Positions 5,481-9,394 of a stretch of 39,610 bases of DNA are shown one piece after another. Position 1 is the first letter of the stretch. Each line of letters begins with the position of its first letter. The notes beneath the pieces were generated by a model. The model ran no database searches. It saw only the letters and a program-made list of their open reading frames with translations, and was not told the DNA's origin. The stretch comes from Bacteroidales bacterium (GTDB taxonomy: Bacteria; Bacteroidota; Bacteroidia; Bacteroidales; UBA932), in contig JAFZFH010000007.1 in the NCBI GenBank assembly GCA_017555965.1, positions 1 through 39,610 of the forward strand, in the 5' to 3' direction. The position numbers were made by a program, and so were the translations under genes.

Positions 5481-6572
5481 ATGATGATTGATAAGATTTT
5501 ACTCTTCCCCTATTGGGCTACCCTGAAATACAGACATTTCATGTACGATCATGGAATGAAGAAGGTGCATACAGCTGATGTACCCACAATCTGTGTGGGC
5601 AACATTACTGTCGGTGGAACAGGAAAGACTCCTCATACCGAGATGCTGTTGAGAACGCTCCTGCAGAATGTTGACTGGGGCGCAAAGAACATCGCAGTCC
5701 TTTCGAGAGGATACAAGAGAAATACTAAGGGATTCCAGCAGGTGACGGCCGACGGAACCGCACGTCAGTTCGGTGACGAGCCGCTTCAGATAAAGAGAAA
5801 ATTCCCGTTCATCACTGTGGCTGTGGACAAGTCGCGCAAGGAAGGTGCATCCTTCCTGTGTAATCCGGAGCTTGTCCAGACATCAAAAAAGGCTCGTAGA
5901 TGCATCCACAAGGATTTTCCGAAAGCGGATATCATCATTCTTGACGACGCGTTCCAGCACAGGGCACTCAAGCCTACAGTATCCATCGTTCTTGTAGATT
6001 ACAGTCGTCCGACATTCAAGGATCATCTCATGCCGCTCGGAAAACTTCGTGACCTTCCTGAAAGACTGGAGGCTGCGGACATCGTCATTGTATCCAAATG
6101 CCCCAGATATCTTGACGCATGGGAAAGAAGCAAATGGACTGAGGCCCTCAAGATAAAGGACCATCAGCACATATTCTTCACGACCATAGGATACGACAAC
6201 TCACAGGCAGTCTTCCCGGAAGGCGACCCTCGCTATCTGTACACTCAGAGAGCCATCCTGTTCTCCGGAATAGCCAATGACAAGCCGTTAAGAAACTACC
6301 TGAGCGACACCTATAGGATCGTTAGGCACTTCGATTTCCCTGATCACCATAAATTTTCAAGAAGCGACATCTCGAAGATCAATGGTGCAGCACGTACATT
6401 CCCGACATCAGTCATCATGACAACAGAAAAAGATTGCCAGAGACTACGTGACTGCAAGTCTGTCCCTGACAATCTTAAACAAAGGATGTTCTATGCCCCT
6501 ATCAAGGTAGATTTCTTCTCGGAAGAGGAGCAGGAGAACTTTGCATCTATTCTGAACGGTTACCTGAAATAA
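5481..6572 (+). CDS. lpxK: Tetraacyldisaccharide 4'-kinase (lipid A 4'-kinase)
   Basis: 363 residues. Transfers phosphate from ATP to the 4' position of the lipid A disaccharide precursor at the inner membrane, late in lipid A synthesis. The Walker A loop is GNITVGGTGKTP at about residues 40-51, and the family motif LDDAFQHRAL follows near residue 155. The N-terminal hydrophobic stretch KILLFPYWATL fits membrane association. Two adjacent ATG codons (5481 and 5484) could both start translation. Its last 26 bp overlap the convergent DAHP synthase/chorismate mutase gene tail to tail. Confidence 0.95.
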   Translation: MMIDKILLFPYWATLKYRHFMYDHGMKKVHTADVPTICVGNITVGGTGKTPHTEMLLRTLLQNVDWGAKNIAVLSRGYKRNTKGFQQVTADGTARQFGDEPLQIKRKFPFITVAVDKSRKEGASFLCNPELVQTSKKARRCIHKDFPKADIIILDDAFQHRALKPTVSIVLVDYSRPTFKDHLMPLGKLRDLPERLEAADIVIVSKCPRYLDAWERSKWTEALKIKDHQHIFFTTIGYDNSQAVFPEGDPRYLYTQRAILFSGIANDKPLRNYLSDTYRIVRHFDFPDHHKFSRSDISKINGAARTFPTSVIMTTEKDCQRLRDCKSVPDNLKQRMFYAPIKVDFFSEEEQENFASILNGYLK

Positions 6573-7653
6573 TCTCGTTCTGCACATCCACCGATGCCTC
6601 GTGAATTGCATTGAACACGTCCATGACGAACTCTTCCGGCAGGCCGTGCTCCTTTCCGCGTTCCACCACCTTGTCGAGGATGGCATCCCATCTTGAAGTC
6701 TGGAGAATGGCGATATTGTTGTTCTTCTTATATTCACCGATCTTACGGCTTATCTGCATTCTGGTTCCCAGCGTGTAGAGAAGGTTCTCGTCAATCACGT
6801 CGATCTTTGCACGAAGCTGGTCGATGTTGTCCCTCCATTCCTTTGCCTCGGAATCAGCATCCCTTACGACGATCTGGTTGTACAGAAGATCCTTAAGCTG
6901 AGACGGAGTCAGCTGCTGCTTCGCATCACTGAGAGCAGTCGAAGGATTACAGTGAGACTCGATCATCAGTCCCTCGAAGCCAAGGTCAAGAGATCTCTGC
7001 GAGATTTCCTTTATATAATCGACATGACCGCCCATATGGCTAGGATCCACGAAGAACGGAAGTTCAGGGTAACGGCTCCTGAGTTCGATGGCAATTTCCC
7101 AATGCGGGTCATTGCGATACTTTATCTTGTCGAAAGTAGAAAAACCTCTATGAATCACTCCGAGTTTCTTGATTCCTGCGCGATTAAGACGTTCCAATGC
7201 ACCGATCCAAAGATCGAGATCGGGGCTGACCGGATTCTTCACCAGAACCGGAATATCAGAACCTGAAAGTGCGTCTGCAATCTCCTGGACAAGGAACGGA
7301 TTCGCTGTTGTTCTTGCACCCAACCAAACCATATCCACTCCGTGCTTCAGACACTCGTAAACATGTTTCTCGTTGGCAACCTCAGTAGATACCTTAAGAC
7401 CATACTCCTTCTGTACCCTCTGAAGCCACTTAAGACCCGGCACACCTATACCCTCAAAACATCCAGGGTGAGTTCTCGGCTTCCATATTCCGGCACGGAA
7501 TACATTGATGCCCAATTCCTTGAGGCCTTTTGCGGTCTCCATCACCTGCTCTTCTATCTCAGCGCTGCATGGACCGGCCACCACGCTAGGTCTTGGCAGT
7601 GTAAACATACCCCATTCGTACATCGGTACGATATCAAGTTTCTTGTTAGCCAT
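6547..7653 (-). CDS. Bifunctional DAHP synthase / chorismate mutase (type II)
   Basis: 368 residues. Residues about 1-265 are a KDO8P/DAHP-synthase TIM barrel (AGPCSAEIEEQV near 27, FRAGIWKPRTHPG near 52, GARTTANPF, VIHRGFST, DPSHMGGH), condensing phosphoenolpyruvate with erythrose 4-phosphate. Residues about 272-362 are an AroQ-type chorismate mutase helical bundle (LRAKIDVIDENLLYTLGTRMQISRKIGEYK), converting chorismate to prephenate. This barrel-then-mutase order is the common Bacteroidota form. It lies 11 nt downstream of tyrA in the attenuator-controlled operon, so entry into the shikimate pathway and prephenate formation are coupled. No transaminase gene is present here. Confidence 0.94.
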   Translation of the reverse strand: MANKKLDIVPMYEWGMFTLPRPSVVAGPCSAEIEEQVMETAKGLKELGINVFRAGIWKPRTHPGCFEGIGVPGLKWLQRVQKEYGLKVSTEVANEKHVYECLKHGVDMVWLGARTTANPFLVQEIADALSGSDIPVLVKNPVSPDLDLWIGALERLNRAGIKKLGVIHRGFSTFDKIKYRNDPHWEIAIELRSRYPELPFFVDPSHMGGHVDYIKEISQRSLDLGFEGLMIESHCNPSTALSDAKQQLTPSQLKDLLYNQIVVRDADSEAKEWRDNIDQLRAKIDVIDENLLYTLGTRMQISRKIGEYKKNNNIAILQTSRWDAILDKVVERGKEHGLPEEFVMDVFNAIHEASVDVQNEIISGNRSE

Positions 7654-7664
7654 ATGCTTATCAA

Positions 7665-8531
7665 TTATCTGATTATTCTTCTTATTCTGTTTGCATCCTG
7701 AATCAGCTTCCTCAAAGCCTCTTCATCCGCTTCCTCCATCGCCTTGCGGAAAGCATCCAGCATGGAGGTATATGTATCCATCACATGGAGAACATTCTTC
7801 CTGTTCTGCATCAGGATAGGCGTCCACATGTCCGCACTACTCTTTGCAAGTCGCACTGTAGAAGAGAAACCGCCTGAAGCAAGGTCGAAGATATGCTTTT
7901 CATCCTTCTCCTTTTCAAGCACGGTAAGTGCGAGCGCAAACGATATCACATGTGAAAAATGTGACACATAAGCCGTATGCACATCATGACTTGCAGAGTT
8001 CATATGAACCATTCGCATGTTGAGGACATCATAGATTTCCTCGACCGTACGTACTGCCGCCGGCGACGATTCGCTGAAATCACAGATGATGCTCGCCCTG
8101 CCGTCAAAAAGACCGGGAAGCGCAGCCCATGGACCGCTGTATTCGGTTCCCGACATAGGATGCGAAGCCACATAACATTTCCTCATAGGATGGTACTTGA
8201 CCGCCTGTGCAAGACTCTCCTTTGTCGAGCAGACATCCATCAGCACCTTGTCGCATCCTCCATCCGGATAAAGCTCCGCCATTATATCCAGCACCTGAGG
8301 AACAATCCTCAAAGCCGCTCCTACCGGCACCGACACTATTATGACTTCGCTTTCCTTCAAGCATTCATTCACAGTAACCACCGAATCCACGAGTCCGATA
8401 CGCTCTGCTGCAGAGGCATTTACCGGATCATTTTCCACTCCCAGGATCTGTGATGCGTAACCCTTTCTTTTCAAGTCTATCGCCATCGATCCGCCGATGA
8501 GTCCAAGACCGATGATTCCTATCTTCTTCAT
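7665..8531 (-). CDS. tyrA: Prephenate dehydrogenase
   Basis: 288 residues. Oxidative decarboxylation of prephenate to 4-hydroxyphenylpyruvate in tyrosine synthesis. The N-terminal Rossmann fold has the dinucleotide motif IGIIGLGLIGGS (residues 4-15), then VIIVSVPVG near 65 and SHPMSGTEYSG near 123 (substrate site). The C-terminal half is helical and carries SHFSHVISFALAL near 190. It starts 10 nt after the stop of the prephenate dehydratase remnant and is the first intact enzyme gene after the attenuator. Its prephenate would be supplied by the chorismate mutase domain encoded next. Confidence 0.94.
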   Translation of the reverse strand: MKKIGIIGLGLIGGSMAIDLKRKGYASQILGVENDPVNASAAERIGLVDSVVTVNECLKESEVIIVSVPVGAALRIVPQVLDIMAELYPDGGCDKVLMDVCSTKESLAQAVKYHPMRKCYVASHPMSGTEYSGPWAALPGLFDGRASIICDFSESSPAAVRTVEEIYDVLNMRMVHMNSASHDVHTAYVSHFSHVISFALALTVLEKEKDEKHIFDLASGGFSSTVRLAKSSADMWTPILMQNRKNVLHVMDTYTSMLDAFRKAMEEADEEALRKLIQDANRIRRIIR

Positions 8532-8541
8532 ATCATTTCCG

Positions 8542-8658
8542 TTATATTGCTGCCTCGTACTCTCCCAGAATGTTCAAGTCGGTCATAAGAGGCTTCACCG
8601 CTGCCAATGCCTGCTCGTGGAAACATCCCTTGATACCTTGAATCGCTATTCTTTTCAT
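8542..8658 (-). pseudogene. pheA: Internally deleted prephenate dehydratase remnant (38 codons, frame intact)
   Basis: The reading frame starts MKRIAIQGIKGCFHEQ, which is the opening strand and motif of prephenate dehydratase (xxIAIQGxxGSFHxxA). It ends AVKPLMTDLNILGEYEAAI, which matches the last helix and strand of the enzyme's ACT domain (a LxxLT-x-LkILGEY ending). The catalytic domain and most of the ACT domain, normally some 240 residues in between, are absent, yet start, frame and stop are kept. It sits directly after the attenuator and 10 nt before tyrA, where an intact pheA would be expected. The product cannot be an enzyme; translation may still help ribosomes reach tyrA. Family assignment is from memory of conserved termini. 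Alternatives are a chance small peptide or an assembly collapse. Confidence 0.7.
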
Positions 8659-8670
8659 CTTCCGGTTAAA

Positions 8671-8703
8671 TAAAAATGCTGCCCGGTAAATACCGGACAG
8701 CAT
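8671..8703 (-). terminator. Attenuator terminator (3:4 hairpin) of the aromatic operon
   Basis: On the minus strand arms 8691-8703 and 8676-8688 form a 13-bp stem with a single G-U pair and a very short loop, followed at once by TTTTT-A-TTT (8676-8668). This is a strong intrinsic terminator placed before, not after, the first gene (the remnant ATG is at 8658), which marks it as an attenuator. Confidence 0.85.
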
Positions 8704-8784
8704 AACAGATTTCTATATCAGTCGATACACAGCGCCCGGTCCATTACCTTTTCTGGAAATAGAAATAATAAAAACCGAAGCTGT
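8691..8784 (-). promoter_or_regulatory. Alternative leader RNA structures (1:2 and 2:3) of a Phe/Tyr attenuator
   Basis: Region 1 lies inside the leader codons (ACAGC 8784-8780 and CGGT 8777-8774) and can pair with region 2 (GCTGT 8733-8729 and ACCG 8740-8737). Region 2, ACCGGGCG at 8740-8733, can instead pair with region 3, the 5' arm of the terminator (8692-8699), giving 8 contiguous pairs of which two are G-U. Region 2 and region 4 share the identical heptamer ACCGGGC, so they compete for region 3. Region 2 begins 3 nt after the leader stop codon, so a ribosome finishing the leader would mask it and let the terminator form. Confidence 0.8.
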
Positions 8785-8803
8785 TAAATCGATAAGTTCC
8801 CAT
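8744..8803 (-). CDS. Phe/Tyr-rich leader peptide of the aromatic amino acid operon
   Basis: A 19-residue reading frame encodes MGTYRFNSFGFYYFYFQKR and then TAA. Five Phe and four Tyr occur in 19 codons, seven of them within residues 9-16. All Tyr codons are TAT; Phe uses TTT and TTC. The frame ends just before RNA segments that can fold into exclusive antiterminator and terminator hairpins, and is followed by aromatic biosynthesis genes, exactly the arrangement of pheL/trpL-type leaders. A ribosome stalled in the Phe/Tyr run would cover region 1 and favour readthrough. The ATG lies only 8 nt after the presumed -7 element, so the message may be almost leaderless. It is too short for standard gene callers. 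Confidence 0.85.
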   Translation of the reverse strand: MGTYRFNSFGFYYFYFQKR

Positions 8804-8811
8804 AACGGTTA

Positions 8812-8819
8812 CAAATATA
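8812..8819 (-). promoter_or_regulatory. -7 element of the aromatic operon promoter
   Basis: TATATTTG on the minus strand fits TAnnTTTG. It lies between the frr stop codon (8831) and the leader peptide ATG (8803). No TTTG is found at the usual upstream distance, which would fall inside frr. Readthrough from pyrH-frr is also possible, as no terminator separates them. Confidence 0.5.
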
Positions 8820-8830
8820 GATAAATTTCT

Positions 8831-9394
8831 TTAGACTGTCATCATTTCCTTCTCCTTTGCCACCACGAGCTCATCAACCTTCTTGGTGAAAGCGTCAGTC
8901 TCCTTCTGGACAAGCTGCTCGTACTCCCTCTGGAGATCCTCAGGCATACCGTCCTTGTTGGCCTTCTTGAGAAGTTCGATCGCATCACGGCGAGCGTTAC
9001 GAACGCTTACCTTTGCATTCTCACCGGCACCCTTTGCCTTCTTGAGAAGCTCCTTACGACGGTCCTCAGTAAGAGGCGGAACTGTACAGCGGATGCTTTC
9101 ACCGTTGTTTGAAGGAGTTAATCCGAGGTTTGCGTCAATGATCGCCTTCTCGATTACAGGGATCATCTTCTTCTCCCATGGCTGAAGCATGAGTGTCTTT
9201 GCGTCAGGAGTAGTTACAGAAGCAACCTGCGGAACTGGTGTCGGGCTGCCATAGTAGTCAACCATCACAGAGTTGAATACGAGCGGATTTGCCTTACCGG
9301 CACGATATGTCTTGAGTTCCTCGTCAAGATGAGTGACTGCATGTGCCATCTTATCCTTTGCACCTGCAAGAATTTCTTTTGCCTTAGTAATCAT
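8831..9394 (-). CDS. frr: Ribosome recycling factor
   Basis: 187 residues, standard length. With EF-G it splits post-termination ribosomes. Recognisable features: HAVTHLDEELKTYRAGKANP near residues 17-36 (in the place of the usual RTGRA loop), VDYYGSPTPVPQVASVTTPD near 45-64, LGLTPSNNGESIR and PPLTEDRRKELLKKAK near 90-121, and a long helical three-stranded bundle at the C-terminus. It follows pyrH by 32 nt in the same direction, the widespread pyrH-frr pair. No terminator follows; the aromatic operon promoter begins 12 nt after its stop codon. Confidence 0.97.
   Translation of the reverse strand: MITKAKEILAGAKDKMAHAVTHLDEELKTYRAGKANPLVFNSVMVDYYGSPTPVPQVASVTTPDAKTLMLQPWEKKMIPVIEKAIIDANLGLTPSNNGESIRCTVPPLTEDRRKELLKKAKGAGENAKVSVRNARRDAIELLKKANKDGMPEDLQREYEQLVQKETDAFTKKVDELVVAKEKEMMTV

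Follow-up and report, generated by a model that had tools for sequence, protein, structure and literature searches.

A putative Phe/Tyr leader-peptide attenuator upstream of a tyrA operon that carries a pheA deletion scar in a Bacteroidales bacterium

The window, by which we mean the whole stretch of 39,610 nucleotides that was analyzed, comes from a Bacteroidales bacterium. On its minus strand, downstream of frr, it carries a short reading frame rich in Phe and Tyr codons, followed by a set of mutually pairing arms, an intrinsic terminator, a remnant of pheA and two further genes, namely, tyrA and a gene coding for a fused DAHP synthase-chorismate mutase. The features are given below in the direction of transcription, with the basis of each assignment in parentheses.

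8831 to 9394, minus strand: frr (ribosome recycling factor), the upstream neighbor (profile and annotation matches; by eye, the leaders of L032 and L036 likewise follow frr-like ends)
8812 to 8819, minus strand: candidate promoter box TATATTTG of the Bacteroidota -7 type, consensus TAnnTTTG, with the leader ATG 8 bases downstream (consensus from PMC7366714)
8744 to 8803, minus strand: leader peptide ORF MGTYRFNSFGFYYFYFQKR and stop, 19 codons, of which 5 encode Phe and 4 encode Tyr
8761 to 8792, minus strand: region 1, within the leader codons, pairing with region 2 (fold of the fragment, -25.8 kcal/mol; pair counts)
8722 to 8754, minus strand: 3' side of the 1:2 hairpin, overlapping the end of the leader ORF (folds)
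8740 to 8734, minus strand: core heptamer ACCGGGC of region 2, starting 3 bases past the leader stop
8692 to 8703, minus strand: region 3, ATGCTGTCCGGT, which can pair with region 2 and otherwise forms the 5' arm of the terminator (folds)
8698 to 8692, minus strand: GTCCGGT within region 3 (sequence)
8676 to 8687, minus strand: region 4, ACCGGGCAGCAT, the 3' arm of the terminator, repeating the region 2 heptamer (folds)
8687 to 8681, minus strand: second copy of ACCGGGC, at the start of region 4 (sequence)
8671 to 8675, minus strand: T-tract of the intrinsic terminator, TTTTT (sequence)
8542 to 8658, minus strand: pheA (prephenate dehydratase) remnant of 38 aa (alignment to the relatives L051 and L052)
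8609 to 8616, minus strand: deletion junction with one copy of GAGCAGGC (alignment to L051 and L052)
7665 to 8531, minus strand: tyrA, prephenate dehydrogenase (NF006307, 322.7 bits)
6547 to 7653, minus strand: fused DAHP synthase-chorismate mutase (PF00793, PF01817)

The promoter-like box and the 19-codon frame with five Phe and four Tyr lie where an earlier note on this DNA had placed them, and region 2 does begin 3 nt past the leader stop and has ACCGGGC in common with region 4. The terminator described there is likewise present with its T-tract, although its stem (8703 to 8676) has 12 bp before TTTTT rather than 13. A scan of the short ORFs of the window (10 to 45 codons, ATG or GTG start, one per stop) revealed that, among 674 such frames, the leader ORF alone has at least 6 Phe or Tyr residues within 10 codons. 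The terminator stands between a short ORF with clustered codons and the first gene, though only the Tyr codons of the cluster still match genes of the operon.

This mismatch results from the state of pheA. The first frame after the terminator is not tyrA but the 38-aa pheA remnant (8658 to 8542), in which 17 N-terminal and 21 C-terminal residues are fused in frame to read MKRIAIQGIKGCFHEQA...LNILGEYEAAI; the window therefore lacks the intact pheA after the leader that would make a complete Phe/Tyr operon. The nearest relatives found, L051 (tyrA 90%) and L052 (tyrA 86%), have the gene order leader, full pheA, tyrA and DAHP synthase/chorismate mutase, and their leader peptides differ from that of the window by one residue in L051 and by none in L052. 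In the pheA gene of L052 the segment missing from the window is flanked on either side by the 8-mer GAGCAGGC, both copies being read in the same frame, and the second copy in L051 has one base changed. Since two copies are found in L052 and one in the window, the in-frame loss of approximately 238 codons (counted against L051) looks like a short-repeat deletion at the 8-bp repeat. Misassembly is unlikely to have produced the scar, since a repeat of only 8 bp would hardly confuse an assembler. Over 35 codons, the scar differs from L051 by 11 synonymous and 2 nonsynonymous changes and from L052 by 11 and 3, respectively; such mostly synonymous changes suggest that the loss is recent and has left little time for decay.

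Profile searches with PF00800 (prephenate dehydratase) retrieved no match in the assembly of the window (165 contigs, 86% complete), in which chorismate synthase is present along with six Aminotran_1_2 matches; we infer Phe auxotrophy of the organism. PF00800 was found in only 60 of the 149 genomes sampled from the order versus 127 of the 148 sampled from the phylum, and Phe auxotrophy may be widespread within the order. In most of the other tabulated relatives pheA is followed by an aminotransferase gene; L051 and L052 have no such gene between pheA and tyrA, and the operon of the window lacks it too. The stop of the scar ORF lies 10 bases before the tyrA ATG (8531 to 8544), and the two genes of L051 overlap at the pheA stop and tyrA start; judged from this arrangement, the in-frame scar may preserve translational coupling.

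Short Phe/Tyr frames recur in relatives, as the earlier note had proposed to check, and they do so before pheA. We fetched the upstream regions of 80 pheA genes, from 40 of 60 PDT genomes of the order and 40 of 49 of the genus to which the window belongs, and scored as a leader any ORF with at least 6 Phe/Tyr in 10 codons upstream of pheA. With one order region left out (L147, 15 nt upstream), such a leader is present in 36/39 order regions, compared with 36/1,950 shuffles (1.8%) and 2/39 reverse strands. In the genus, 17/40 regions have one, against 4/2,000 shuffles and 0/40 reverse strands; the other 23 of these 40 (L080 to L119) lack a Phe/Tyr leader over 420 nt of upstream sequence (132 nt in L083). 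A phylum set of 38 of 127 PDT genomes, picked by hand for family spread and comprising 17 of class Bacteroidia and 21 others, was scanned over ~560 nt upstream (251 nt in L286) with TTG starts allowed, arms and shuffles being confined to the order and genus sets; in this hand-picked set a Phe/Tyr ORF precedes pheA in 15/17 of the other Bacteroidia and 1/21 of the rest of the phylum. In total, 68 of the 96 Bacteroidia pheA regions examined have the leader. A terminator lies between the leader and the first gene for 59/63 leaders; the arm tests were run on these 59, the other four having no terminator by the criterion used. A leader model (R1), trained on pheA-backed leaders plus that of the window, so that strongly Tyr-shifted leaders may be undercounted, matched 84/300 genus genomes, 80 of them strongly.

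Folding supports the proposed arms. The 152-nt leader RNA has a folding energy of -49.3 kcal/mol, compared with an average of -31.5 for its shuffles (z = -4.48; 0/200 shuffles as good), the terminator hairpin reaches -20.2 kcal/mol, and all three pairings that the earlier note had put forward for folding, 1:2, 2:3 and 3:4, form. When a ribosome was placed on the leader of the window with its A-site at codons 3 to 17, 2:3 pairs formed (7 at codons 3 to 11 and 8 at codons 12 to 17); at codons 1 and 2 only 1:2 formed, and at the leader stop codon the number of 2:3 pairs was 0. In these modeled folds, a stalled ribosome would free region 2 and one at the stop would mask it. With the ribosome at the stop, 9 nt of arm 3 are still paired upstream, not with region 2, and the energy of the free RNA is -6.0 kcal/mol, versus -16.6 at a stall. 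A version of the test applied to 59 leaders, which counts any upstream pairing of arm 3 and not that with region 2 alone, found at least 5 nt of arm 3 paired upstream in 59/59 at Phe/Tyr stalls. At the stop, arm 3 was paired upstream in 6/41 order and 15/18 genus leaders; in 40/41 and 16/18, respectively, a ribosome at the stop left less of arm 3 paired than a stalled one did.

The arms also change together between lineages. Among the order leaders, pairing is better with a leader's own arm than with the median arm swapped in from others in 41/41 cases for 2:3, 38/41 for 1:2 and 41/41 for 3:4, and the exclusive alternatives 2:3 and 3:4 are thus both kept by co-change there. In the genus the corresponding counts are 8/18 (P = 0.32), 16/18 and 15/18, the 2:3 test being powerless within the genus because region 3 is nearly invariant; the covariation that the earlier note had asked for is hence found between lineages, with no signal from this 2:3 test inside the genus. 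Shuffled versions of region 2 were as good as the real one in at most 5/100 trials for 33/41 order and 12/18 genus leaders (4/100 for the window) and in more than 5/100 for 8/41 and 6/18. An alignment of 27 genus leaders has standard pairs at 91.6% (3:4), 90.2% (2:3) and 76.8% (1:2) of the paired cells, with slid controls in the same alignment giving at most 45%, 52% and 49%, and these levels were reached by 0, 7 and 1 of 500 column shuffles. Double-change pairs in this alignment do not exceed column shuffles, which reached them in 131, 240 and 174 of 500 cases (3:4, 2:3 and 1:2). In L034 arm 4 of the terminator is without CCGG, yet CCGGGC in region 2 and GTCCGG in region 3 are retained; L031 keeps CCGG in arm 4. 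Judged from these comparisons, the arms differ in sequence between lineages with their predicted pairing kept.

Among the genus leaders, the gap between the TAnnTTTG box and the ATG is 8 bases in 43/79, at most 11 in 49/79 and 15 to 41 in 25/79, with no box in 5/79; among the order leaders it is 17 to 46 in 26/41, with no box in 15/41. In the window, where 8 bases separate the box from the leader AUG, transcription of the leader may begin just a few bases upstream of that codon; a box placed near -7 would leave a 5' UTR of only ~2 to 6 nt. For comparison, the commonest 5' UTR length in Bacteroides thetaiotaomicron is 23 nt, and ~3.7% are under 10 nt (PMC7366714). A scan for sigma-70 promoters was uninformative here because these bacteria use TAnnTTTG.

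On the strength of this anatomy, the modeled folds, the co-change of the arms and the breadth of the family, we consider it very probable that the window holds a transcription attenuator of the ribosome-mediated type, which senses the charging of tRNA-Phe and tRNA-Tyr and was inherited from a pheA operon. The 5' end of the transcript would lie a few bases upstream of the leader AUG, with a ribosome trailing the polymerase over the 19 codons. A shortage of either Phe-tRNA or Tyr-tRNA would stall this ribosome among codons 4 to 16, covering region 1 so that 2:3 pairs, and the formation of 2:3 would block the terminator and allow the operon to be transcribed. If both charged tRNAs were plentiful, the ribosome would reach the stop and cover region 2, and 3:4 would terminate transcription; on an untranslated leader, 1:2 would form and 3:4 would again terminate. 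The switch inherited from the pheA operon would now govern tyrA and the DAHP synthase-chorismate mutase with its five Phe codons kept. The suggestion that a Phe-plus-Tyr leader fits its operon holds for the Tyr codons, which match tyrA; since pheA is a scar, the Phe codons no longer match the downstream enzymes.

Codon content can be compared with gene content across the family. Our table of 80 leaders takes in 78 of the model's 80 strong matches and adds G041 and G118; it leaves out G402 (ORF not found at the site), G397 (contig end) and nine weak matches (E above 1e-4), five of which (L217 to L221) have no operon gene in their surroundings. The 75 leaders with pheA behind them, of which seven (G306, G307, G319, G327, G296, G297 and G324) were entered as pheA positive without re-annotation, average 4.09 Phe and 4.03 Tyr. 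At most one Phe codon is found in 3/5 leaders without an intact pheA versus 2/75 with it (Fisher P = 0.0012, by genome) or, by leader type, in 2/4 versus 2/75 (P = 0.011), these being raw counts of small numbers. The leaders of G509 (G509:C45, L224; 1 Phe, 7 Tyr) and G374 (G374:C3, L211; 1 Phe, 4 Tyr) stayed before tyrA or an aminotransferase gene and are Tyr dominated; pheA lies elsewhere in both genomes, and these detached copies have no Phe/Tyr ORF upstream. The genome of G314, 80% complete and with no PF00800 match found, has a leader (1 Phe, 3 Tyr) closely resembling the G374 one. PF00800 was also not found in G560 (84% complete), the leader of which (G560:C189, L215) has 4 Phe and 2 Tyr and lies directly before tyrA, with ~125 bases between terminator and tyrA that hold no clear pheA scar. 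From these leaders it appears that the departure of pheA was accompanied by a Tyr-dominated leader (1 Phe, 3 to 7 Tyr) in two leader types but not in G560 or in the window, which still has 5 Phe and 4 Tyr despite the loss of pheA.

Several other explanations of the locus were weighed against attenuation. The hairpin might be the plain intrinsic terminator of frr next to a chance Phe/Tyr ORF, without any regulation, as its position downstream of frr and the favoring of Phe/Tyr codons by T-rich stretches would allow. We judge this highly improbable: the leader frequency in order regions far exceeds that in shuffles, region 2, for which a plain terminator has no need, changes in step with region 3, the interval from frr to the leader contains a candidate promoter box, and by eye the upstream sequence varies in some relatives, e.g., L033, L042 and L049. 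Short leader genes near start codons have been proposed to raise translation through reinitiation (PMC4833913), and the ORF could accordingly be a reinitiation helper, or else encode a functional small peptide, with the terminator independent of it. However, the leader stop is 61 to 128 nt from pheA in 16/17 genus leader regions and 203 nt in the remaining one, with the terminator in between, peptides differ between families outside the Phe/Tyr block (by eye), and nothing in this explanation accounts for why region 2 should pair with region 3, which makes it, too, very improbable. Direct sensing of amino acids by a riboswitch or T-box, with the ORF incidental, has a parallel in the tyrosine genes that are under T-boxes in other bacteria (PMC1262725). 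It is the least credible of these explanations, as covariance-model searches with Rfam 15 (including Bacteroid-trp, RF01692) gave no match in the window at gathering score; the seven sub-threshold matches at E up to 10 are all unrelated, none is an amino-acid leader, and the best is a Bacillus sRNA at 24.6 bits against a cut-off of 60.

A decaying relic deserves more weight, although we still regard it as unlikely. Under this explanation, the ancestral attenuator worked, and since the pheA deletion the leader and terminator have been drifting and merely lower or fix tyrA expression. The reduction of pheA to a 38-aa scar, the lack of PDT in the assembly and the retention of five Phe codons that no longer fit the enzymes would all agree with it. 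Against it, the leader peptide is the same as that of L052 and all arms are intact, the mostly synonymous scar changes point to a recent loss with little time for decay, and the Tyr codons still suit tyrA. We return to a working attenuator and tentatively offer, as quite possible, a joint reading in which the window holds a near-leaderless Phe/Tyr attenuator caught just after the deletion of pheA and still reading Phe, within a family in which codon content tracks gene content. If so, Phe shortage would switch on tyrosine synthesis in a cell unable to make Phe, the exit of pheA would be followed by a drift of the leader from about 4 Phe and 4 Tyr to 1 Phe and 3 to 7 Tyr, and sensor specificity would evolve through simple codon replacement after operon breakage.

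Leader-peptide attenuation is a textbook mechanism. The attenuators of Proteobacteria, such as pheL-pheA, trpL and hisL, resemble the window in having a leader ORF with regulatory codons, 1:2, 2:3 and 3:4 arms and a terminator with a T-tract; in contrast to them, the window has mixed Phe and Tyr codons before what was a combined Phe/Tyr operon, a predicted transcript start that adjoins the AUG and no Rfam match. The enteric ilvG and thr leaders likewise carry codons for more than one amino acid in one leader, although their amino acids and operons differ from those of the window. The earlier note had described this trp/phe logic as best known from Proteobacteria; the folds bear out the logic, and a precedent within Bacteroidota exists in Flavobacteriaceae, in which a 5' element upstream of pheA was described in Flavobacterium psychrophilum and other members and leader-peptide attenuation was suggested for amino-acid operons (PMC9723704). 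That element is similar to ours in gene, class of bacteria and absence of an Rfam hit; the passages on it cited here (PMC9723704) specify neither a peptide nor arms nor codons. Control of phenylalanine genes by attenuators is also stated for other species (PMC1262725). The Bacteroid-trp motif (RF01692; PMC2864571) is likewise a predicted cis-regulatory RNA of Bacteroidetes, but its name points to trp genes, and the window does not match it. In B. thetaiotaomicron, sORFs reminiscent of leaders have been noted, Bacteroidota mRNAs are without a Shine-Dalgarno sequence, and posttranscriptional control is described as little known (PMC7366714). Among the matches listed in our literature search, there was no description of a Phe/Tyr leader of Bacteroidota.

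The mechanism and the flavobacterial pheA element being known, the points of interest here are the dual Phe/Tyr codons, the predicted near-leaderless start and the loss of pheA. The arms and ribosome positions described above provide a testable model for a Phe/Tyr attenuator before pheA in the 68 Bacteroidia regions with the leader. Genomes in which pheA has gone from the operon amount to a natural experiment on change in sensor specificity, of which the window may show the first step.

Tandem Phe/Tyr leader ORFs were also observed upstream of pheA in 9/80 regions, from eight families of the order. Each leader of the pair has a terminator in L124, L142, L145, L150, L158 and L159, and one of them is without a terminator by the criterion used in L122, L133 and L151. 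Tandem Phe/Tyr leader ORFs occur as well in L068 and L069, two records titled Chlorobiota.
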